Source of the DNA: Phormidium sp. OSCR
GTDB lineage: Bacteria > Cyanobacteriota > Cyanobacteriia > Cyanobacteriales > Geitlerinemataceae
Direction: 5' to 3'
Assembly (NCBI GenBank): GCA_001314905.1
Contig: LJZT01000028.1
Span: 1 to 44,354, forward strand
DNA length: 44,354 nucleotides
Every line of letters starts with the position of its first letter. The first letter of the stretch is position 1. Below, in pieces: positions 23,156 to 36,180 of the stretch. The notes beneath the pieces were generated by a model. The model saw nothing but the letters and a program-made list of their open reading frames with translations. It was not told where the DNA came from and did not search any database. The position numbers and the translations under genes are program-made.

Positions 23156-23241
23156 CAAAACCTACCTTGGCCAATTGGCGCTTAATCTCCCGATTTGGTT
23201 CTGTGGACTCCTTCATTTTAGACTGCTTTCTGACCTGTCAC

Positions 23242-23463
23242 TAACGGGCGATCGCTGAAGTATCCAGACTTTTCAAGAATCAGGCAAAGTCCCGTGGATG
23301 CTCCTAGGATCAATACATCCAGCGAAAATGGGTTAAGCGCATCCGTGGCAGTGACCTCACCTTTGAACAACCGACATATTCATTTCAGATGGAAGTCATT
23401 GATGAGACTGATTGGCTGGATGACAAGGAGAGCAATGGTCAGGAGGACTGTGAAATCCCATAA
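23242..23463 (+). pseudogene. Decayed gene end with an in-frame TAG
   Basis: One forward frame reads coding-like sequence across a stop: AIAEVSRLFKNQAKSRGCS, then TAG at 23305-23307, then DQYIQRKWVKRIRGSD, and on through EVIDETDWLDD to a TAA at 23461. Charged, helix-like codons on both sides fit a single old frame in which a TTG Leu codon became TAG. I do not recognise the family. No start codon with a ribosome site is visible, so this is read as the 3' remnant of a lost gene. The rest of the 23156-23762 gap holds only the hairpin listed next. Confidence 0.35.
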
Positions 23464-23670
23464 TCCGTTGTCCTTGATGCTGGTAGCTGAACAAGCCACT
23501 CCCTCAGTCTCCCTGACGTGAATACTTACCTCAACAAATAAATGTTTCAGCCCCTGCACTCAAAAGCCTTTGGACTATTGACGTTGACGCATCCCCCAAA
23601 TATTGTTATTCTAGACCGTATTACAATAAATTCTAGGCTGAGGCAGTTCTTACCAGGAGAGTGAATCTCA

Positions 23671-23724
23671 CTTACTGCATATCCTTGCGTGGCAAAAAAC
23701 TACGTAAGGATATGCAGTAGTAAG
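23671..23724. repeat. Long near-perfect inverted repeat before the acyltransferase gene
   Basis: ACTGCATATCCTTGCGT (23674-23690) and ACGTAAGGATATGCAGT (23702-23718) pair over 17 positions with one C-to-T change that leaves a G-U pair in RNA. Outer CTTA/TAAG bases extend it. The loop is 11 bases. It ends about 40 bases before the ATG at 23763. It could be a terminator guarding the gene, an attenuator, or the remains of a mobile end. Confidence 0.7.
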
Positions 23725-23762
23725 ATCTAAGTTTTTTTACCTTTCTACACAAGTTAAGACCT

Positions 23763-25037
23763 ATGTCAAACCGTAAATTAGATCCTATGGAGCAGGGCAT
23801 GGAGCTTTTTAATCGCTTTGCCCATTCACTAAATATAGTTGTAGTTAGTGAAATCAGAGGTTCACTTGATCCGTCGGTAGTAAGGAGATCTTTAGATTTG
23901 GTACAAGAGCTACACCCTAGTTTAAAAAGCCATATTATTGGCAATACTAATAATCTTAGGTTCGTAACAGAAGGTACAGAAAAAATTCCGCTACAAACGA
24001 TTCATCTTGATTCTGAAAACTGGAATTCAATTGTAGAGAGAGAATTGAATCAAAGGATAGAAAGTGAAAAAGTTCTTGTCAAGGCAACTTTAGTTAAGTA
24101 CAGCAAGGGTTCTTTAAATCATCTTATCACTACTATCCACCATGCTATTGCCGATGCTTTATCCGGTATAAATCTTCATAAAAAAATTTTAGAATTTTAC
24201 TGTGAAATTTTAGGTGGAATAACCCCAAATGTGTCTCCTATGCAAAAGTTACCATCATTAAAATTTTTGATGGACAAAAAAATTGGTAAAGATTTAGAAA
24301 ATAAAACCATCTCAAAAGACTTCATAGATCCTATTAGTAAGCCTCAAATTAGTAAGCTTCAAACTTCAAATTTTGCAACACACTTGGAAAGAACTTGTAA
24401 AATTTTTCATAAGAGGCTTAATCTCGATTCAAGCATTAAGTTGATGGCAAGATGTAAAGAGGAAGGAGTTACTGTCCATGGTGCAATCTGTGCAGCAATG
24501 ATGTTTTCCGTAGCAAAACTAATTCACGTAGATGATCAGGGGCTTTATTTTAGTTGTCGGTCTTCTGTAGATATGAGAAGACGGATTGATCCACCAATAA
24601 GCAACGATCATTTATCAATGATTGTTTCTGCACTAACATCCATTCATAAATTGACTGACAAAACCGATTTTTGGGAACTAGCGTTTTCTGTCACAGAACA
24701 AATTCAGCAACGCTTACAGACTTCTGAAATTCATGCGGGTGTCCTTAATTATAGGAAGGGTGCAGAAAAACTATTGGCTCACCCTGAATTCACACCTTTT
24801 TCAATTTTTGTCACTAATATTGGTAAAGTACAGATCCCTAAAGATTATAGATATTTTTCCTTAGAAAACGTCAACTACGCTCTATCTACAACAGTTATGG
24901 GCAATGTGTTTGGTGTGGCTGTTTCAACTTTTCTAGAGCAAACTACATTTAATTTTATATTCACTCATCCTTTGATCAACCAAAAGACCATGGATTACTT
25001 AATTGAAGAAACAATAATCCTCCTTATGGACGCCTAG
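23763..25037 (+). CDS. Condensation-domain-like acyltransferase (HHxxxD family)
   Basis: The 424-residue protein has HHAIADA (His126-His127-xxx-Asp131), the catalytic HHxxxD motif of the superfamily that holds NRPS condensation domains, polyketide-associated PapA acyltransferases and alcohol acetyltransferases. The start (LDPMEQGMELFNRFA) and the second half (VHGAICAAMMFSVAKL, LYFSCRSSVDMRRRI) follow the two-lobed layout of stand-alone alcohol-acetyltransferase-like members. The substrate is unknown. No biosynthetic partners (carrier protein, adenylation domain) are adjacent. The gene is much AT-richer than the left and right chromosome, has no HIP1 octamer and stands behind a long hairpin, all signs of recent transfer. 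Confidence 0.72.
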   Translation: MSNRKLDPMEQGMELFNRFAHSLNIVVVSEIRGSLDPSVVRRSLDLVQELHPSLKSHIIGNTNNLRFVTEGTEKIPLQTIHLDSENWNSIVERELNQRIESEKVLVKATLVKYSKGSLNHLITTIHHAIADALSGINLHKKILEFYCEILGGITPNVSPMQKLPSLKFLMDKKIGKDLENKTISKDFIDPISKPQISKLQTSNFATHLERTCKIFHKRLNLDSSIKLMARCKEEGVTVHGAICAAMMFSVAKLIHVDDQGLYFSCRSSVDMRRRIDPPISNDHLSMIVSALTSIHKLTDKTDFWELAFSVTEQIQQRLQTSEIHAGVLNYRKGAEKLLAHPEFTPFSIFVTNIGKVQIPKDYRYFSLENVNYALSTTVMGNVFGVAVSTFLEQTTFNFIFTHPLINQKTMDYLIEETIILLMDA

Positions 25038-25072
25038 AGTTAAAACAGTTGGTCAATTTTCTATCTCTCTGG

Positions 25073-28000
25073 TTAATCTTGAACTGCACCCAAAGTTATA
25101 AGCATTTCTTTTTGAGATAATGTCAAACCTTTTGCATTTTTAATATAAATTCCTTCGTATGGTCTTTCAGGTTTTAATAACATTAGACATTCTCCAGTAC
25201 TGAAATCCCATATTCTGATAGTTTGGTCATCACCACCACTGGCAACCATAAGACCATCATGACTAAAAGAAGCAGACCATATCCAGCTGTCATGGCCGAC
25301 CAAAGTTGCTATACATTCTCCAGACTTGACATCCCATATCTTTAAAGTTTTATCATCACTACCACTAACTAAGTAGCTGTTATCAGGACTAAATGCAATA
25401 GTTCGAACTCGCAAGCTATGGCTACTCAAAACTCTACATTCACCCGTTTTAATGTTCCAAATACGTATACCACCACTTCCATCACAACTTGCCAACGTAC
25501 CATCATCTCTATTAAAACTTACAGACCATACAGCATCCATATGACCGTCTAAATGATTTAGATATCTGTTTTCTTGAAGATTCCAAAGTCTAATGTAATG
25601 TTCTTCACTACTGATGGCAAGTATGTAACCATCTGGACTAAAACTAACATCTCTAGCTCGAGTTGGTTCACCGTTTGGATTTGACAAATGCAAACGGTGG
25701 ACTAGCTCATTAGTTTCATAATCCCATATATTTACCTTTTCTCCATAATAGTAGCTAATTGCTAAAATAGGATCTGTCGGATGAAAAGCAACTCCAATCA
25801 CCCTATCTCTATTTTCATCTTGCTTTTTCATGTTGATAAGTTTCTTAGAAGAAATATCCCAGATTTTTACTGTTCCGTCATAACTTCCACTAGCAAGAAG
25901 GCTTCCATTGTAGCTAAAAGATAATACCCTAACTAAATTTTCGTGAGTTCCTAGTAAATCACTTTCAATTTTCTCTGTACCTCTACTATCCTGCTCAAAG
26001 TTCCATATTCGGAGAGCATGATCTTCATCGCCACTGACTAACAAAGAGTTGTTAGGACTGAAGGTTACTGCCCATATAGGATTGGTGTACCCATAGATTG
26101 TCTTTAAGCAAGTTAAGGAACTAAAATCCCACATTTGAAGAGTTTGATCTTCTCCTCCACATAAGATCTGTTGATTCTCAAGTTTAGAATTAAAAGCAAT
26201 AGATCGAAGGGGCTTCTTATTATTTCTACTAAAGTCCTTTAGAGAATATAGCTCCCCGGTATTAATATCCCATCCTCGGATTACACCATCAGCACAACAA
26301 CCTAAAATGAATTGACCATCAGGATTAAAAGAGATATCTCTAATTCTACCCTTGTAACTCTTAGTACCCAATTTTTTGACACATTGCCAATTTCCAGTAT
26401 CAAGCAACCATACCTCTGAAAAGTCTCCGCAAATTGCAAACAATTTTCCATTAGGACTAAATTTAACTCTGTTAATTGGCTTTGGATAGTCAGTAAAGAA
26501 ATGTAACTGTTGAGCTGTACTCACATTCCAAAATCTTACATTTGTTCCTTGACTACCACAAGCCAAAACACTTCCATCAGGACTAAACGCAAGAGCATTA
26601 GCCCATGTCCGATGACCCCTGAAAACCTTTTCTAATTCTGAGGTATGAGTGTTCCAAAGCTTAATATCCCGATCCTCTCCACCAGTAGCAAGGTATTTGC
26701 CATCAGGGCTAAATACAACTGATCTTACTCTGCCAGAATGCCCAACATTCACTCTAATCCAATCGCCACTATCAACATTCCATAATTTAACTTGCTTATC
26801 GCCCCCACCACTTGCAAAGTAATTCCCACAAGGACTAAATGAAAGTGCCCAGACCCAATCAGCGTGAGCTTTGTAATTCCGAATACATTCTTCCTTGCCA
26901 TCCTCGAATGACCAAAGATGCACCTGGCCACTGGCAGTTCCTGCTATGGCATAGTCATTTCTGAAATCAATTGAAATGATAGTACTAAAACTTTCTCTAA
27001 AAATAGACTGAGACAGATCACAATCAGAAAAATTCGTGTACTTAACATATCTATTAGACAAATCTGCTTGTCTAACTCTCAATCCAGAAAAGTCATATCC
27101 ACGAATTTCTGGATGATGTTTTAGCAAAATATTAAGCAAATTGCCGGCTGCATAACCATTATTATCGCTCATAACAACGGATCTAATTTGTGACAGTTTC
27201 GAATCAACTTCCTGCAACGATATTTGTTCCGATATGGGAAGCACTATTCGCCGTGTCTGATCAGCCTTAATATAATCCTTATCCGTTGCCTTAACAATAC
27301 AGAATTTATTTAAGCTATCGATCTTATCTGACTTTATTTCTTCGACAATTTCTTTAATGAGTCTATTAAGCGTATATTCCACTAGGACAGGTTGCAAACT
27401 GTACTGTACAGGATGTTTACCAGAAGATCGCTCAACAGGAAGTGATCTAACATCCAATGTATTTTGAATAAGACCTTCTATGTCACAGGCAGGTAAAGAC
27501 TGCAGCATATCTTCAGCTAGGGAATTGGCAGGCACAGATTCACCATTAATGGATAGCCAGTAAATAATTTTCAATTCAGGTTCTGACAGCCTCTCAAATG
27601 TCCAATCCAACAAAGATTGAATATCAGGGTATATTTTTTCCCCCTCTCGAAGAAATCTCGAAATATCTCCCTGATAACGTGATCGTATCACTTTTGCGAC
27701 AATATTGAGAGCTAAAGGATTTCCAGCATAGAAGTCAACAAGCTTATTCCAATCTGAGTCTGAGCCTATAAAGTTATCAGCTATGGACGCAAAAAATAAT
27801 TTAACACTAGGACAATCTAGCCCTTCTAAGTAAAGTGAACGTACAGGTCTTTTGACACCTTCTAACTCATAAATTGTAGTAGGGTTCTCTCGACTATTAA
27901 GCAATAAACAACTTTGATGTTGTTGCCTGCCAACCTGTTCAAATAGTTTACCATACCCTGCACATCCAGGAGCATAATTTCCTAGTCCTTTAAGAATAGT

Positions 28001-29167
28001 TTCCACATTATCTATTACCAGCAAACAACGATATTTCCTGAAGTATTCTATTAACCCTTCAATTTGACTATCCAATGTATCAGGCAAATCATTTTTTTGC
28101 TGATTAGAAAGAAAGTTCAAAGCCCTTGCTATGAATTCTTTAAATGGTAAACCTGCCTTCAAAGTTACATAAATAACATAAGTAAATTCTGATTCAATGT
28201 TTTTGGACAGTGTTCTTGACAACTCGCTTTTTCCAATTCCAGCTTTACCGAGGCTCATTTGCGAAAGCGCAGACTTTCCAACACCTCCCATACCTAAGAT
28301 AGCTATCAACTTACATCTATCCTTCAAAATCCAATCTTCTAAAGATTGGAGTTCTTTTTCCCTCCCGACAAAATAAGTGGACATATCATCGGATTCAAAA
28401 TTTATATCGAGTACCTTTGTTTTTGTAAGCCTTTCCTGCTCTTCAAGTTCAGGTTGACGTGGAGCAAGTGTTGCACCTGTTGTCTTATTTTGAATACGCA
28501 GAAGTTGAGGCTGTAAGTTGATGTCTTGCTCTCGTAATAAGCGATTCCACTCATCGTCGTTATACACATCACAAAGTGGAACCGCTTCCAATGAGGCAGA
28601 ACGCTCTGGATTCTGATGTTGCCTTAGTACTGCGACTATCAAACCATCGCAGACAATAGCTGCACCTGAATTTCCTTCCCAATCAGAACCTGAATCTAGA
28701 GAACCTTCCGGTCTTCGTAAGGCTTCTAAGACTAATAATTCATCAGGTGATGTATCGGCTAAATATATAATACCTTCGACCTGTCGCCCCCCCGCGGCTA
28801 CCCCGTCTTCCCGTCGCGTTCTTCCCCATTTTGGATAACCATACATTTGAAAACTAAGCTTTTCGCCAACTTCGACTTTCGGTAACAAACCAAATGCAGC
28901 AGATTCAAAAGGCTGAATCCTTTCAGGCAGTTGAATTAAAGCAATATCCGCCCGTAAAGATTTCCATCGTACTGTAGCTTCTACTTCTCCAAAACTTCGT
29001 TTTGCCCTGACACGGCAAACAGAATTAACTTCATCCAAAATATGAGAAACAGTCAAAACTAGCCTGCCTCCTATTCGGTAACCAGAACCATACTTCGGGT
29101 GAATGACCTCTAATGCTCGACTCGGTTCAAAACGTCTAATCATAAAAATTCTATTTTCTTGCTGCAT
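25073..29167 (-). CDS. Trypsin-like protease / NB-ARC STAND NTPase / WD40 sensor protein
   Basis: The 1364-residue protein has three parts. Residues 1-200 form a trypsin-like serine protease with a visible triad: His42 (VLTVSHIL), Asp74 (ADIALIQL) and Ser167 (WEGNSGAA). An NB-ARC-type STAND NTPase follows from about 265 (YFVGREKELQSLE), with Walker A GMGGVGKS (292-299), a second GKAGIGKS (307-314) and Walker B CLLVIDNVE (381-389). After a helical region comes a C-terminal array of 14 WD40 blades (about 770-1330), enough for two seven-bladed propellers, and a tail (GLTLSQKEMLITLGA) common in cyanobacterial proteins of this type. By family knowledge this is an effector-switch-sensor design in which ligand binding should activate the protease. 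The trypco2 gene lies 14 bp upstream. Confidence 0.88.
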   Translation of the reverse strand: MQQENRIFMIRRFEPSRALEVIHPKYGSGYRIGGRLVLTVSHILDEVNSVCRVRAKRSFGEVEATVRWKSLRADIALIQLPERIQPFESAAFGLLPKVEVGEKLSFQMYGYPKWGRTRREDGVAAGGRQVEGIIYLADTSPDELLVLEALRRPEGSLDSGSDWEGNSGAAIVCDGLIVAVLRQHQNPERSASLEAVPLCDVYNDDEWNRLLREQDINLQPQLLRIQNKTTGATLAPRQPELEEQERLTKTKVLDINFESDDMSTYFVGREKELQSLEDWILKDRCKLIAILGMGGVGKSALSQMSLGKAGIGKSELSRTLSKNIESEFTYVIYVTLKAGLPFKEFIARALNFLSNQQKNDLPDTLDSQIEGLIEYFRKYRCLLVIDNVETILKGLGNYAPGCAGYGKLFEQVGRQQHQSCLLLNSRENPTTIYELEGVKRPVRSLYLEGLDCPSVKLFFASIADNFIGSDSDWNKLVDFYAGNPLALNIVAKVIRSRYQGDISRFLREGEKIYPDIQSLLDWTFERLSEPELKIIYWLSINGESVPANSLAEDMLQSLPACDIEGLIQNTLDVRSLPVERSSGKHPVQYSLQPVLVEYTLNRLIKEIVEEIKSDKIDSLNKFCIVKATDKDYIKADQTRRIVLPISEQISLQEVDSKLSQIRSVVMSDNNGYAAGNLLNILLKHHPEIRGYDFSGLRVRQADLSNRYVKYTNFSDCDLSQSIFRESFSTIISIDFRNDYAIAGTASGQVHLWSFEDGKEECIRNYKAHADWVWALSFSPCGNYFASGGGDKQVKLWNVDSGDWIRVNVGHSGRVRSVVFSPDGKYLATGGEDRDIKLWNTHTSELEKVFRGHRTWANALAFSPDGSVLACGSQGTNVRFWNVSTAQQLHFFTDYPKPINRVKFSPNGKLFAICGDFSEVWLLDTGNWQCVKKLGTKSYKGRIRDISFNPDGQFILGCCADGVIRGWDINTGELYSLKDFSRNNKKPLRSIAFNSKLENQQILCGGEDQTLQMWDFSSLTCLKTIYGYTNPIWAVTFSPNNSLLVSGDEDHALRIWNFEQDSRGTEKIESDLLGTHENLVRVLSFSYNGSLLASGSYDGTVKIWDISSKKLINMKKQDENRDRVIGVAFHPTDPILAISYYYGEKVNIWDYETNELVHRLHLSNPNGEPTRARDVSFSPDGYILAISSEEHYIRLWNLQENRYLNHLDGHMDAVWSVSFNRDDGTLASCDGSGGIRIWNIKTGECRVLSSHSLRVRTIAFSPDNSYLVSGSDDKTLKIWDVKSGECIATLVGHDSWIWSASFSHDGLMVASGGDDQTIRIWDFSTGECLMLLKPERPYEGIYIKNAKGLTLSQKEMLITLGAVQD

Positions 29168-29181
29168 TATGGAGATCGTAG

Positions 29182-29490
29182 CTACATTGGGGTCTCGTTA
29201 CTTCCCGTCAACACGGGCCTACCATCGTACCTAAGAGGTTTGAGAGGAACGATGACTTTATGAATAGATTTATCCTTTATGTCAAAACTTCCACCTAGCT
29301 CAACCACCCAAAACTTAATTCCGCCTTTGGCATTTGTATTCCGTTCTACTGCGACATGAAACTCAACAGTTACCTCACCAACTTCAAAGCGAAGCTTTTC
29401 ATCCTCTGAAGCAATAATAGATGCTATCAATTCTTGTCGTAGTGCTGCGATTGTTTCCCTTAAGCCAATTCTTTCTATATCACGAGTCAT
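29182..29490 (-). CDS. Trypco2 (trypsin-co-occurring domain 2) protein
   Basis: The 102-residue protein reads IGLRETIAALRQELIAS, LRFEVGEVTVEFHVAVER, IKFWVVELGG and HKVIVPLKPL. This helix-then-beta-sandwich pattern is the Trypco2 domain, a small domain known from genomic studies to sit beside trypsin-containing conflict systems. It lies 14 bp before the trypsin-NB-ARC-WD40 gene on the same strand, so the two are almost certainly one operon. Its exact role (adaptor, substrate or inhibitor of the protease) is not established. GAGAAGG precedes the ATG. Confidence 0.85.
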   Translation of the reverse strand: MTRDIERIGLRETIAALRQELIASIIASEDEKLRFEVGEVTVEFHVAVERNTNAKGGIKFWVVELGGSFDIKDKSIHKVIVPLKPLRYDGRPVLTGSNETPM

Positions 29491-29826
29491 ACCAAATTAC
29501 CTTCTCTTAATTATCAGCAATCCATTAAACAAGATATCGCATTGTATGTAAGCAAAGGTATGAAATTATTTCGGGGCAGGAGCAAAAGGCTAAAGCCTAA
29601 ATTCCCTTATTTGATAAATTTGATCAAGGGTCTTCAGAATCGTCCGAAATCTCCATCGTCCTGGCATCCAAGATGTAACACCCCTAATAGCTCCGTTATA
29701 TAGCAACTTTTTGTTCACGTCAAGTCTACAGCTAATATCCCAGCAATTCTCATTTTGACCCGCATCCTGTCGAAGATGGTCGAAGATGCCCAGTCTTGAA
29801 CGAAGGAATGGGGCTTTCAAGAATCA

Positions 29827-29848
29827 CTATTGAGACGATTCTCAATAG
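29827..29848. promoter_or_regulatory. Perfect 9-bp dyad in the gap upstream of trypco2
   Basis: CTATTGAGA (29827-29835) and TCTCAATAG (29840-29848) form a perfect inverted repeat around CGAT. It stands about 340 bp upstream of the trypco2 start in a 448-bp gap (29491-29938) in which I recognise no gene; it could be an operator or a small hairpin. Confidence 0.35.
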
Positions 29849-29938
29849 GCTAGGACAAAATTTCCATAATGAGAATTGCTGGTTAACATCTCGGGCAAAG
29901 ACTCTGAAACTCTCTGTGACATCAGATAAACTGGAACC

Positions 29939-30109
29939 ATGACCCAGCCCCTACAGCTTCAATCCACCCCTTACCCCGACTCTCCCACCGGGGTAAGGGT
30001 TCCCTGCACCATTGACGAAGCCATCGCCGAACTTGACCGATTGCTGCCCCCAGTCCTAAAAGCAGCCTTCATTCGAGGTAGTATCATCATAATTGATAGG
30101 CAGCGGTAG
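29939..30109 (+). pseudogene. Truncated small gene whose end is supplied by a MITE
   Basis: A 56-codon frame starts MTQPLQLQSTPYPDSPTGVR and continues CTIDEAIAELDRLLPPVLKAAF, a helical stretch resembling small cyanobacterial hypothetical proteins. From about codon 44 it runs into the duplicated flank and then the MITE copy A, and its TAG stop (30107-30109) is inside the MITE end. The natural C-terminus seems lost. Family unknown. Confidence 0.45.
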
Positions 30110-30310
30110 GGTGTGTTCCGGCTTGGTTCAATCCTGAGATTTTTGCAACAAGATTAAGCTAGCTGGAACGCACCGATTCGGGAACGAGATGATAAATACC
30201 GGAATATATTGATGATGAATCCTTGCCAGATTATCAAACCGGTGCGTTGCGGCAGCTTCTAGATTATTGTCTTAATTCTACATGGGTTTAAGCCGCAACA
30301 CACCCTACCG
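30104..30310. mobile_element. MITE copy A, 207 bp
   Basis: The ends CGGTAGGGTGTGTTCCGGCT and, on the other strand, CGGTAGGGTGTGTTGCGGCT form terminal inverted repeats of about 21 bp with one mismatch. An inner inverted repeat (AACGCACCG / CGGTGCGTT) allows a cruciform. There is no reading frame for a transposase. Elements with GGTAGGGTGTGTT ends are frequent in cyanobacteria. Copy B is at 30682. Confidence 0.85.
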
Positions 30311-30371
30311 TGACTCATGAATAATGGACGAATTGACAAAGATAATCCGAGGGTTTATGAGGGCGTTCTTC

Positions 30372-30665
30372 CTAACTCTCGAAATGCAAACTTTCAAGAT
30401 GACTAGAACTATCTTCATCAGCGACAGAAGTTCCATGCTGCCACAGTTCGTATTCACTAATGTCGATATCCTCATTCCAAACTAGCGCATATCCTCCAGG
30501 TTCGACCTGAAAGTTCCTAAAAAACGCGGGATTGTTTAAGAGAGCAAACATGGGATTATCTAACAATTTAGAGACATCATATTTCCGTATCTCTCCATTG
30601 TCAAATTCAACCAAAAGTTTATAATCTTCAATTACTTTGGCGGCATTAATTCGAGGTGGTATCAT
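30372..30665 (-). CDS. DUF2442 domain protein
   Basis: The 97-residue protein reads INAAKVIEDYKLLVEFDNGE, then IRKYDVSKLLDNPMFALL and the later GGYALVWNEDIDISEYELW. This is the DUF2442 pattern, a small beta-rich domain often found in toxin-antitoxin-like pairs, commonly next to DUF4160. No DUF4160 gene is adjacent here; instead a MITE starts 16 bases upstream of the ATG, so its normal promoter or partner may have been displaced. Confidence 0.8.
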   Translation of the reverse strand: MIPPRINAAKVIEDYKLLVEFDNGEIRKYDVSKLLDNPMFALLNNPAFFRNFQVEPGGYALVWNEDIDISEYELWQHGTSVADEDSSSHLESLHFES

Positions 30666-30681
30666 AACGATTGATAGGCAG

Positions 30682-30888
30682 CGGTAGGATGTGTTCTGGC
30701 TTCGTTCAATTCTTGGATTTTAGCAACAAGATTAAGCTAGCCGGAACGCACCGATTCGGGAACGAGATGATAAATACCGGAATATATTGATGATGAATCC
30801 TTGCCAGATTATCAAACCGGTGCGTTGCGGCAGCTTGTAGATTGTCGTCTTGATTCTACATGGGTTTGAGCCGCAACACACCCTACCG
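30682..30888. mobile_element. MITE copy B, 207 bp
   Basis: It has the same length, ends and inner inverted repeat as copy A, in the same orientation, 578 bp away. About 30 bases of left flank are also shared (TTCGAGGT...GTATCAT...TTGATAGGCAG), so the repeated unit is about 241 bp (30070-30310 and 30648-30888). Confidence 0.85.
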
Positions 30889-30996
30889 TGTCTAAAACCA
30901 TCATTGTTCAGCATCCCACGAGATGTCGATAGGTAAAATTAGGTCATTCTCAAACAAGATACTATCTTTCAACGGATTAATCGAACTCGATCGCTC

Positions 30997-31110
30997 CTAA
31001 GATTCTACCTCAACTCTTGACTGTTTCAATGCCCAAATAATACAAGACAAGATTTCAATCTGGGACTCATCAATCAAGTCAATTTCTCGTTTTAACTGTT
31101 CACGATCCAT
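30997..31110 (-). CDS. 37-residue small protein, antitoxin-like helix
   Basis: The product starts MDREQLKREIDLIDESQIEI and ends WALKQSRVEVES. Short proteins with this pattern, a single amphipathic helix beginning with a charged dipeptide and QLK.E.D, occur in cyanobacteria beside small toxin or hypothetical genes. Its ATG overlaps the stop region of the frame upstream by 11 bases, which suggests coupled translation. Confidence 0.45.
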   Translation of the reverse strand: MDREQLKREIDLIDESQIEILSCIIWALKQSRVEVES

Positions 31111-31219
31111 CACAACGGCCCTCAATGACGGTCAATTCAACAAAACTAGGCGAGTTCGCTTCACCAATAGCCACTCGGATGACGGCTTCACAATTCTGAT
31201 TCAAAAAACCGCGCATCAT
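31100..31219 (-). pseudogene. Truncated aspartic-protease-like small gene
   Basis: The frame starts MMRGFLNQNCEAVIRVAIGE and stops after 39 codons. The opening resembles the N-terminus of small retropepsin-like (clan AA) proteins of cyanobacteria, which usually continue into an Asp-Thr-Gly active site. Here the sequence leaves the pattern at about residue 34 and no DTG is present, so an intact protease is not encoded. It follows the 88-residue gene upstream, which commonly precedes such proteases. Confidence 0.45.
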
Positions 31220-31224
31220 CAGGA

Positions 31225-31491
31225 TCATTTCAAGCTTCGGGAACCAAAGCGATACAGAAACCGATCGCCGATTCTGATCACCCACGGTTGAGCATTAGGG
31301 TAGCGTTCATAAAGTCGATTCGTTGCCACTATCGGGGTATCATCCACCTCAAATGCACCGGTTTCAATGTCAATCGCCACCACCTTACCCCAGTTTACCA
31401 TCTCAATGCGAGGACGGATGTGAGCCTCATATAACACATTCCCCCGTCGAGCAAACTCCTCCTTGCTATAGCGAGGTTGTCGAACGTTCAC
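31225..31491 (-). CDS. Small conserved hypothetical protein (upstream partner of an aspartic-protease-like gene)
   Basis: The 88-residue protein reads RQPRYSKEEFARRGNVLYE, VNWGKVVAIDIETGAFEVDD and PWVIRIGDRFLYRFG. I recognise this as a recurrent cyanobacterial small protein that often stands before the retropepsin-like gene; here that gene is truncated. The domain looks beta-rich. Function unknown, possibly a toxin-antitoxin-like pair. Confidence 0.7.
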   Translation of the reverse strand: MNVRQPRYSKEEFARRGNVLYEAHIRPRIEMVNWGKVVAIDIETGAFEVDDTPIVATNRLYERYPNAQPWVIRIGDRFLYRFGSRSLK

Positions 31492-31521
31492 TGCAATGAC
31501 CTCATGGTGACGCTTACGGCT

Positions 31522-31740
31522 TCATTCTAACCTGGGTTCTACCCTGTCACACGGACGGGCGATCGCCGCCAGCTTCCGCAACTCCTCAACCGTAGAAATC
31601 ACATGATCCGCCACCCGATCAATCTCCTCTAATATGGAAGAAAAAGCCGGATCGATGAATTGATAGGGGCGCTCCCATAATTTTGACGGTATCCTGGTAG
31701 AAGGGTGGAGCTTTCACCCAAACTTTTGTAGAGTCCCGCA
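31522..31740 (-). pseudogene. Chimeric remnant ending in a copy of the cysteine desulfurase C-terminus
   Basis: On the reverse strand the frame reads WERPYQFIDPAF and then LEEIDRVADHVISTVEELRK to a TGA at 31522-31524. The second part is a near copy of the C-terminus of the cysteine desulfurase encoded at 33872-35065 (LEEINRVADHVISTVEALRK). At the DNA level 31559-31632 matches 33894-33967 at 68 of 74 positions, including 34 identical bases in a row. The first part is not from that enzyme; an adjacent frame reads WVKAPPFYQDTVK, so it is probably another gene's end with a frameshift. Confidence 0.6.
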
Positions 31741-31755
31741 GGCGACCTCTTCCGG

Positions 31756-31786
31756 TTACAATGTGTGATACGAGAAGGGTTATAAT
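31756..31786 (+). promoter_or_regulatory. Candidate promoter of the AAA/DUF4435 pair
   Basis: TTACAA (31756-31761) and a perfect TATAAT (31781-31786) are 19 bp apart, about 150 bases before the ATG of the ATPase gene. The spacer is long for a standard promoter, so this is tentative. Confidence 0.35.
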
Positions 31787-31938
31787 CTCAGAAATTCCGA
31801 TCTAACATTAGTAGGTCGTCAAGATTAAGTGTAAAATACAAAAGGCTGTCAACCCCTCTGAATAGGAAATGTAGGATTTCAGGCTTGGCGTTTATTTGTG
31901 AGCGCTTAACTTGCACACACCAACAAAAATCAAATGAC

Positions 31939-33048
31939 ATGAAAGTAGAGTCAATTAAAATTCAAAATTTCAGACGATTTCAAGATCTAGAAATTTCATT
32001 CAAGAATAACATCCTTGATGAGGTGAGCGATCGCTATCTGATCCTCGGCGATAACGGAACGGGTAAAACGACACTCTTACAGGCGATCGCGCTCCCTTTA
32101 GCATTGGCGACGGGTCAGATTCGAGATGTCGCAGATTTTAACTGGATCGGTTTTCTGCCTGATCGCCATTTCAGGTGGGGAGATCCCAAGATTGAGATGC
32201 AAATTTTATTTGAGGAGGAAGAATTAAAAACAACCTCTGAACTGGCAAAAAAATGGTACGACGCTCAACCGGATGAATTCAAAGAGATGCGCGAGTTTGT
32301 CGAACCCGGAGATAGCCGAAAAGTTCGCCTGCTCTTAAACGGTGATTTTTGGAAAGCGGGAGATACTCCGGCAGAACAAGCCCAATTTAGAGGAAGATAT
32401 TATGCTCAATGGTTTATCAACAGGAGAGAGCAATCTGTCCGACATTATTTTTCCAAACTTCCCGGTGTCTTTTGGTTTGACCAGTTCAGACATTTAGGTT
32501 CCCATTCTAACCCAGACAGTAGCAGAGATAAGCTCAACGAAAGTAGTAGTCAAGTATCCTTTGATGTCGGAGTCGGCCGTCTCCGGCAATACCTGATTGA
32601 TTGGCACAGAAATCAAGAATCCGGAATTGGCGATGATTCAACCAGTTACTTGTTGCAAATAGAAAGACTTTATAAAAAAGTTTTTCCCGATCGCTCATTT
32701 GCCGGGTTAGAAAAATGTCCAAGTCAAGATGATCCGACCGGAGAAGAAACTTATTTTCTGCTGAATGATGGACATCGAACCTATGATGTTGAAGAAATGT
32801 CGGCTGGAGAACAATCGGTTTTTCCTTTGCTGTATGAATTTGTCAGGCAACAAATTGCTTATTCCGTTGTCTTGATCGATGAAATAGACTTGAACTTACA
32901 TCCTCCAGCCGCTCAATATTTTGTCTCTCAACTGATGAAAATTGAACCGACCTGCCAATTTATTATTACCACTCACTCTGATTCAGTTAGCAATGTTGTT
33001 GGAGAAAGTGAAACCTACCGTTTACCGGGAGGATCACTATGTCTGTAA
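31939..33048 (+). CDS. AAA/ABC-type ATPase of a two-gene defence-like module (AriA-like)
   Basis: The 369-residue protein is a RecF/SMC-like ATPase: it starts MKVESIKIQNFRRFQDLEIS, Walker A GDNGTGKT is at 37-44, the ABC signature MSAGEQS at about 287-293, and Walker B VVLIDEID with Asp314-Glu315, then an H-loop in TTHSDSV. It lacks the nuclease domain that OLD-type proteins carry; that function seems to be in the overlapping next gene. ATPase plus DUF4435 is the arrangement of the PARIS defence system (AriA/AriB), where the ATPase senses phage anti-restriction proteins. The in-frame ATG at 31885 is rejected because MKVESIKIQNFR is the usual family start. Confidence 0.8.
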   Translation: MKVESIKIQNFRRFQDLEISFKNNILDEVSDRYLILGDNGTGKTTLLQAIALPLALATGQIRDVADFNWIGFLPDRHFRWGDPKIEMQILFEEEELKTTSELAKKWYDAQPDEFKEMREFVEPGDSRKVRLLLNGDFWKAGDTPAEQAQFRGRYYAQWFINRREQSVRHYFSKLPGVFWFDQFRHLGSHSNPDSSRDKLNESSSQVSFDVGVGRLRQYLIDWHRNQESGIGDDSTSYLLQIERLYKKVFPDRSFAGLEKCPSQDDPTGEETYFLLNDGHRTYDVEEMSAGEQSVFPLLYEFVRQQIAYSVVLIDEIDLNLHPPAAQYFVSQLMKIEPTCQFIITTHSDSVSNVVGESETYRLPGGSLCL

Positions 33049-33871
33049 CGAATCTCTACTGCGAAGGAAATTCTCAAAGCATTGATATTCGAGTCATTCG
33101 TGCGTTATTACCACAAGGTGTTTTAATTCACCCTCTCGGTGGAAAAACGTCAAGCTTTGTCAGTAGTATTATCGCCGATCGTCGCAGACGTCCCAATTTA
33201 GCTTGTCTGGTGGATCATGATTTTGATTGCCGAGACTGGCAAATAAAAAATCAACCTCTTAGATTTGAATATGATAGTAGATGGGTCGGTTGGGCATGGG
33301 AAAGAAAAGAAATTGAAAACTATTTAATCGATCCGGTCGTTGTCCGAAATGCCTTGGGAAAGAAAGCACCCGATCGCGATAAGTATCAGAATGCTTTAAA
33401 GGAAGCGGCGACAGAAATTGCTACATATTCCGCCGCAAGAACGGCTTTGGCTTGCGAAAACTTCAAAAATTATTGGGGCGATGAAGTCCGAGAAGGACAT
33501 CTATTTCCACCCAAGCGTGGTAGAAATTACTGCCAGGTAAGAATAGCCGAAATCGTCAGAGAATATCGGGGCAACAGAATTGTATCCGAAGAAGATGTTC
33601 AAGAGAAATTCAGGACTTTACTTCCTGAATTTCGGGACGGATCGCGTTTTCAAAATTATCTCCATTATTTTGCAGGGAAGGATTTACTCTACGTTATGAG
33701 AAACGCACTCCGCAATTTTGGATTTGAAGATACTTCAAATAACTATCACCCCGAGGAAGTATTCATCGAAAGAGTTGTAACTCGAATTGAAAGCACAGAG
33801 GGGGTCTGGGAGTGGTTGCCAGAATGGACAGTTCTCCGTCAGTTGATTGAGGAGACTGATTTTTCAGAAAG

Positions 33872-33875
<4 letters not shown>
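33039..33875 (+). CDS. DUF4435 (TOPRIM-like) effector partner (AriB-like)
   Basis: The 278-residue protein begins NLYCEGNSQSIDIRVIRALL and has CLVDHDFDC, giving the acids Glu9, Asp59, Asp61 and Asp63 expected of a TOPRIM-type metal site. ERKEIENYLIDP (about residues 88-99) is typical of DUF4435 proteins. In PARIS the partner (AriB) is a nuclease released by the ATPase on infection and cuts a host tRNA; this is known for studied systems, and the match here is at family and architecture level only. The start overlaps the ATPase gene by ten bases, so the pair is translationally coupled. Its end overlaps the convergent cysteine desulfurase gene by four bases. Confidence 0.8.

Positions 33876-36180
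<2,305 letters not shown>

Follow-up and report, generated by a model that had tools for sequence, protein, structure and literature searches.

Background

Miniature inverted-repeat transposable elements (MITEs) are short, non-autonomous and dispersed, and they carry terminal inverted repeats. For repetitive extragenic palindromes (REPs) tagged by GTAG, a 2013 survey describes head-to-head dimers, tandem reiteration together with flanking DNA, members in Cyanobacteria and stop codons supplied by the GTAG ends (PMC3733652). In Table 1 of this survey the stems span 5-13 bp and the loops 2-20 bp, and its text gives as much as 27 bp for an inner loop region (PMC3733652). The DhiTA toxin-antitoxin system is described from Dickeya dadantii as a DUF4160 toxin with a DUF2442 antitoxin (PMC8198452), and a persistence module of Thermus is of the same DUF4160/DUF2442 type (PMC12724237); toxicity and its neutralisation are reported for both Dickeya (PMC8198452) and Thermus (PMC12724237). 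Here we analyse a stretch of 44,354 nt from Phormidium sp. OSCR (contig LJZT01000028.1 of assembly GCA_001314905.1; the whole stretch is called the window below), in which two copies, A and B, of a 207-bp element with GTAG at its outer ends lie on either side of a DUF2442 gene without a DUF4160 gene upstream.

The best explanation of this arrangement, and one that we consider likely, is repeat recombination at a decaying DhiTA-like locus, in which a relic unit was multiplied and the DUF4160 gene was lost at copy B. The features involved are, in window coordinates:

30062-30103, + strand: flank of copy A, a relic DUF2442 gene start plus bridge, with MILPRMKAA on the - strand (by eye)
30104-30310, + strand: copy A, a REP-like head-to-head dimer of two inverted hairpins, 207 bp, GTAG at both outer ends
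30311-30329, + strand: segment X, between copy A and the 3' end of the DUF2442 gene
30372-30665, - strand: DUF2442 gene, 97 aa, putative DhiA-like antitoxin (PF10387, E 1.7e-14), no DUF4160 upstream
30640-30681, + strand: flank of copy B, first codons of the DUF2442 gene plus bridge (30666-30681)
30682-30888, + strand: copy B, the same REP-like head-to-head dimer as copy A, 207 bp, GTAG at both outer ends

Results and discussion

Gene start and element as one repeated unit

Copies A and B belong to a 254-bp direct repeat (30062-30315 and 30640-30893; 92% identical, spacing 578). An initial annotation of the stretch had reported two 207-bp elements in the same orientation 578 bp apart, and this is borne out by the alignment of the two CGGTAG...CTACCG elements, in which 194 of 207 positions are identical. 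A shared left flank is present as well, but its length is 42 bp (35 identical) and not about 30 bp; the second-best 42-mer in the window, both strands considered, agrees at 26 of 42 positions only. As annotated, the flank of copy B is the start of the DUF2442 gene, which reads MIPPRINAA... from the ATG at 30665 on the - strand. The right flanks differ, being X at copy A and another sequence, Y, at copy B.

A search of the window's own genome with the 254-bp repeat gave 15 matches; apart from A and B there are 13, none of which starts before query position 40, and these are therefore without the flank. The relationship of the elements was analysed in a tree of 17 full elements, hand-chosen from the fetched loci, with four partial ones and other copies left out; here A and B form a pair with support 99/95. 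The homologous flank, the copies without flank elsewhere in the genome, the pairing of A and B and the lack of a distinct target-site duplication (see below) all favour the earlier view that element and gene start were duplicated as a unit. Between A and B the identity is patchy (permutation p 0.0008): a run of 94 bp is identical (30165-30258 on the + strand in A, 30743-30836 in B), and the other three segments are 7-17% divergent. This patchiness suggests gene conversion.

The idea that segment X is unique to the A locus was rejected, as a similar tail, TGACTCATTGATNATGGATGAAT, stands right of the dimer at several other loci; X is thus partly a conserved extension of the element. At window positions 30311-30335, and in the relatives, the element may reach beyond its inverted repeats. 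No match was found in the plasmid collection searched.

The element as a REP-like dimer

In each copy, a spacer of about 65 bp separates two hairpins in inverted orientation, each about 70 bp long, and GTAG faces outward at either end. The stems measure 12-14 bp and the loops about 37 nt; the inner hairpin ends have no GTAG tag, and the element as a whole has terminal inverted repeats. Folded as single-stranded DNA, the four single hairpins of A and B are more stable than shuffled sequences (z -2.4 to -3.9). The GTAG (or CTAC) stays free of pairing over its full length in three of the four; in the remaining one, its last G is taken into the stem. The fold of the whole copy B, in which its two ends pair with each other, reaches z -5.2.

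The end motif, allowing at most one mismatch, is found at 21-98 sites per genome in all seven genomes of the genus that were compared, with 26 sites in the window genome; the backward pattern used as control has 0 sites in all seven. The 58 end sites of genome G005 make 57 neighbour pairs, 21 of them within 300 bp, and these comprise 10 head-to-head, 4 tail-to-tail and 7 head-to-tail pairs. Such ends are densely arrayed around two of 29 Y1-transposase loci of the genus (in G005 and G002); a third locus has a single site, and the other 26 have none. The gene of G005 codes for a REP-associated tyrosine transposase (RAYT; NF047646, E 1.2e-53), is located inside a repeat array and is 91% identical to its G002 homologue. 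The two RAYT-type sequences concerned are:

L109 1031-1543, - strand: RAYT gene of G005, between the repeat clusters L109 731-1003 and 1571-2374, one of which has units at 98-bp spacing
L181 2030-2122 (G000:C185), window genome: RAYT-type stretch of 31 residues, 37 bp from a GTAG repeat

The initial annotation had called the element a MITE and proposed to look for its family and a helper transposase elsewhere in the genome. The family is indeed represented by the 13 further repeat matches; of the RAYT type the window genome has only the 31-residue stretch. It had also proposed a check for distinct target-site duplications, which would speak for independent insertions. Duplications of 2-12 bp were tested at both copies with three definitions of the ends (CGG..CCG, GTAG..CTAC and AGGGTG..CACCCT), and under none of these was a duplication of 3-12 bp found at A or B. 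With GTAG..CTAC as ends there is one 2-bp match (CG) at both copies, and with GGGTG/GGATG..CACCC there is a 2-bp TA on both sides at both copies; CG and TA are each also part of the inverted repeat.

The likeness to MITEs lies in the short length, the terminal inverted repeats and the dispersed copies. Unlike MITEs, A and B are without a 3-12 bp duplication, their inner hairpin ends are untagged, and in the congeners a RAYT rather than a DDE transposase is associated with such repeats. Because of the GTAG tag, the untagged inner hairpin ends, the RAYT among such repeats in two congeners and the missing 3-12 bp duplication, the element is better read as a GTAG-tagged head-to-head REP dimer, and the name MITE appears doubtful. 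It resembles the GTAG REP, BIME and REPIN repeats as described (PMC3733652; PMC3116915) in that repeats of its type surround a RAYT in two congeners. However, the window's stems and loops exceed the ranges of Table 1 quoted above, and its hairpins are about 70 bp each against a unit size of 20-40 bp given in the survey (PMC3733652). With stem and loop longer than the listed ranges, we call the element REP-like, of the RAYT-associated kind, and do not assign it to one of the 24 listed families.

The locus in related genomes

In the window as in G002, G004 and G005 the locus is found between proS and a cysteine desulfurase gene (both names were assigned from Pfam domains). The exact junction of gene start and dimer, ATAGGCAGCGGTAGGRTG, has six occurrences in the seven genomes (two each in the window and G002, one each in G004 and G005), all at this locus; another six sites, which deviate from it at one or two positions, are without a gene start. 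Since all exact junctions are at one locus and the near-matches are without gene start, the unit was probably multiplied by local recombination rather than transposition. The fusion of gene start and dimer is older than the window lineage, because G002, G004 and G005 have the same junction.

Junctions, repeat homology, synteny and the presence or absence of DUF4160 were observed directly. Homology to the DUF2442 gene in G001, G002, G003 and G004 stops at 30667, and nothing matches beyond. DUF4160 (PF13711) adjoins DUF2442 in all four; it is truncated in G003 and intact in the other three, the order in G001 and G004 being DUF4160 then DUF2442. In its gene order and Pfam families this corresponds to DhiTA as described (PMC8198452, PMC12724237), and the DUF4160 protein of G004 scores 94.1 bits against NCBIfam DhiT, below the cut-off of 100. 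The window locus differs from DhiTA as described (PMC8198452, PMC12724237) by the loss of the toxin-side gene; in this genus the system is a putative one. DUF4160 is absent from the window locus, the only PF13711 match of that genome being on contig C13, and equally in G005 there is none at the locus and the only match is elsewhere. In both cases the gene start runs via the bridge into the dimer.

G004 has, at the orthologous place, an intact DUF2442-DUF4160 pair followed by a half dimer, X, a relic DUF2442 start, the bridge, a dimer and Y. The same Y follows copy B, and window positions 30894-31148 are collinear with G004. G002 has no pair at the locus; instead there is a tandem array of units of relic start, dimer and X (units 1 and 2 identical at 269 of 272 positions), and an intact pair is located elsewhere in its genome. 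In both G002 and G004 a version of X runs straight into the DUF2442 start, and the internal joint (30329|30634) is the same in the two genomes. The gene start of G005, compared by eye, resembles the operon copy of G004 in its left part (GCGCAATTAATTCG) and the relic type in its right part (GGATCATAA..AATAAATAGGCAG), so that it looks like a mosaic of operon-type and relic-type starts.

By proS identity the window is closest to G001 (97.4% over 1899 bp), and G004, G002 and G005 are mutually 93.2-95.3% identical. Both groups, window with G001 and G005 with G004 and G002, include a member in which a full DUF2442 is fused to a dimer without DUF4160, and another that keeps the pair on the upstream side of the gene. 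As the pair is kept in G001 and G004 and absent in the window and G005, it was probably lost at least twice, on a grouping taken from one gene block and not from a genome tree.

The DUF4160-DUF2442 pair is probably the older state, because 23 of 27 distant DUF2442 loci have a DUF4160 relative within 600 bp upstream (or the first 300 bp); among the other four, one has only about 42 bp of upstream sequence. The match on C13 (L071 1233-1824, G000) led to a complete, divergent DUF4160-DUF2442 pair in the window genome, whose DUF2442 was then confirmed by Pfam (PF10387, E 2.1e-26). A search of the same genome for another DUF2442 relative of the window type yielded no more than a truncated piece on C41 and, on C56, a distant relative. 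The truncated piece (codons 4-32; G000:C41:43003-43089, L045) abuts a REP-like dimer at C41:43091-43289. Judged from its family, the window gene would function as an antitoxin, and with the C13 pair present, the toxin of that pair may act in trans on behalf of the orphan DUF2442.

Proposed history and alternatives

From this comparison we infer the order of events, with recombination as the mechanism, as follows. An ancestral DUF4160-DUF2442 (DhiTA-like) operon would have been situated within a small dimer array between proS and the cysteine desulfurase gene. In the ancestor one operon copy would have decayed, its DUF2442 start becoming joined via a short bridge to a dimer, and the resulting unit of gene start and dimer would then have multiplied locally by recombination. 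In the window lineage, recombination between the intact and the relic DUF2442 start may have deleted DUF4160, its upstream region and one dimer, with the outcome that a full-length DUF2442 was joined to copy B; starting from the arrangement in G004, a deletion between its two gene starts would yield the order seen in the window at copy B. Copy A would be another relic unit, situated across the DUF2442 gene from copy B, with its left side cut by an arriving neighbour block. Later, A and B would have been partly homogenised by gene conversion.

Two independent insertions of a classical MITE belonging to an insertion sequence with a DDE transposase, each beside a DUF2442 start, would fit the terminal inverted repeats and also the TA on both sides of each copy, where a 2-bp TA duplication by the first insertion is possible. 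They are hard to reconcile with the lack of any longer duplication at A or B, the 42 bp of shared flank, the pairing of A and B in the tree and the restriction of the exact junction to one locus in seven genomes, and we regard them as very unlikely. The unit of DUF2442 start and dimer might instead be mobile itself: an element mobilised by RAYT would have captured a gene start and then transposed to a place beside the source of that start. RAYT genes do occur in arrays of same-ended repeats in G005 and G002, and each of four genomes has one or two copies of the unit; yet all six exact junctions are at one orthologous locus, and the window genome has no more of that RAYT type than the 31-residue stretch, which makes such a history highly improbable. 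A simple tandem duplication of 578 bp in the window lineage could have comprised gene start, dimer and DUF2442; if its outer part was lost afterwards, it would explain the spacing and the pairing of A and B without a G004-like ancestor. Against it speak the differing right flanks, with Y matching the sequence after the last unit of G004, the age of the junction, which G002, G004 and G005 share, and the relic unit of the G004 type; we consider it unlikely.

Repeat recombination at a decaying DhiTA-like locus has its own difficulties. The origin of the first junction between gene start and dimer is left unexplained. The sample is small, with only seven genomes of the genus, and the backward-pattern control of the junction search gave one match, in G006. 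G001, the closest relative, is rearranged here with its left dimer truncated, so the earlier state of copy A is not shown, and the neighbourhood in G001 was excluded from the ordering of events at copy A. In the element tree the six flanked elements do form a clade, which speaks for the explanation, although its support of 90/90 is under the tool's mark of 95/80. For the right hairpin alone, copy B is nearer to the units of G004 and G002 (96%) and to that of G001 (94%) than to copy A (93%); hence it is the remainder of the element that groups A with B. The divergence of the flank (7/42) exceeds that of the element (13/207), which needs gene conversion or a faster decay. With regard to the element, the 2-bp TA at A and B counts on the same side, as do the repeats around the RAYT, which by eye have the ends of the window element but other loops, the mere 31-residue stretch of the relevant RAYT type in the window genome, and its divergent 181-aa Y1 gene, which is without such repeats.

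Copy A and the neighbouring interval

The flank of copy A ends a further small gene:

29939-30109, + strand: small open reading frame (ORF) of 56 aa, its end replaced by the flank of copy A, its stop TAG (30107-30109) supplied by the GTAG of copy A

This agrees with the earlier placing of the TAG inside the element and with a chimeric gene end, since the homologues in G002 (104 aa from the first Met) and G008 (58 aa) agree with the ORF to residue ~42-48 and then have other ends. The notion of a truncated gene was dropped: with homologues of 104 and 58 residues, only the replaced end can be stated. A match to PF20594 (DUF6794, E 0.18) is below the cut-off. Left of copy A, window positions 23221-30061 have no blastn match of at least 60 bp in the examined stretches of G001, G002, G004 and G005, and the chimeric gene end at copy A is the right-hand edge of this unmatched block of about 6.8 kb. 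The block had been overlooked in the initial annotation, together with the age of the fusion and the loss of DUF4160 at copy B.

The interval from proS to the cysteine desulfurase gene (33875-35083, - strand) is short in G002, G004 and G005 and about 11 kb in the window (23221-33893). It contains a 1364-aa WD40 protein (25073-29167), a Trypco2 gene (29182-29490) and a two-gene block of a PtuA/AriA-like AAA ATPase (31888-33045) and a 278-aa partner (weak AriAB match, 5e-5). This block is bracketed by a 74-bp direct repeat (31559-31632 and 33894-33967; 68 of 74 identical) of the 3' end of the cysteine desulfurase gene, and it looks like an insertion that duplicated this gene end. The interval is perhaps a hot spot for defence-like genes.

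Conclusion

Processes of this kind are known already, and the present case illustrates them neatly and with good resolution. A literature search on REPs, MITEs and toxin-antitoxin genes, covering titles and the openings of abstracts, gave no description of this case, which does not prove that there is none. That REP dimers act more generally as recombination hot spots, repeatedly stripping the toxin gene from chromosomal DhiTA-like modules and sparing the antitoxin (which may be retained for regulation or for anti-addiction, with the divergent C13 pair as a possible target), is a speculation that we think unlikely.

An inverted-repeat element beside two similar gene starts should, as a caution, not be taken as evidence for two insertions. 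The RAYT-associated REP-like family is linked here to one cyanobacterial genus. Copy B marks the loss of the DUF4160 partner, and the window carries a DhiA-like gene without a local partner. The repeat-mediated loss of a toxin-side gene can be reconstructed in this case, with neighbouring species still showing what are likely its intermediate and end states.
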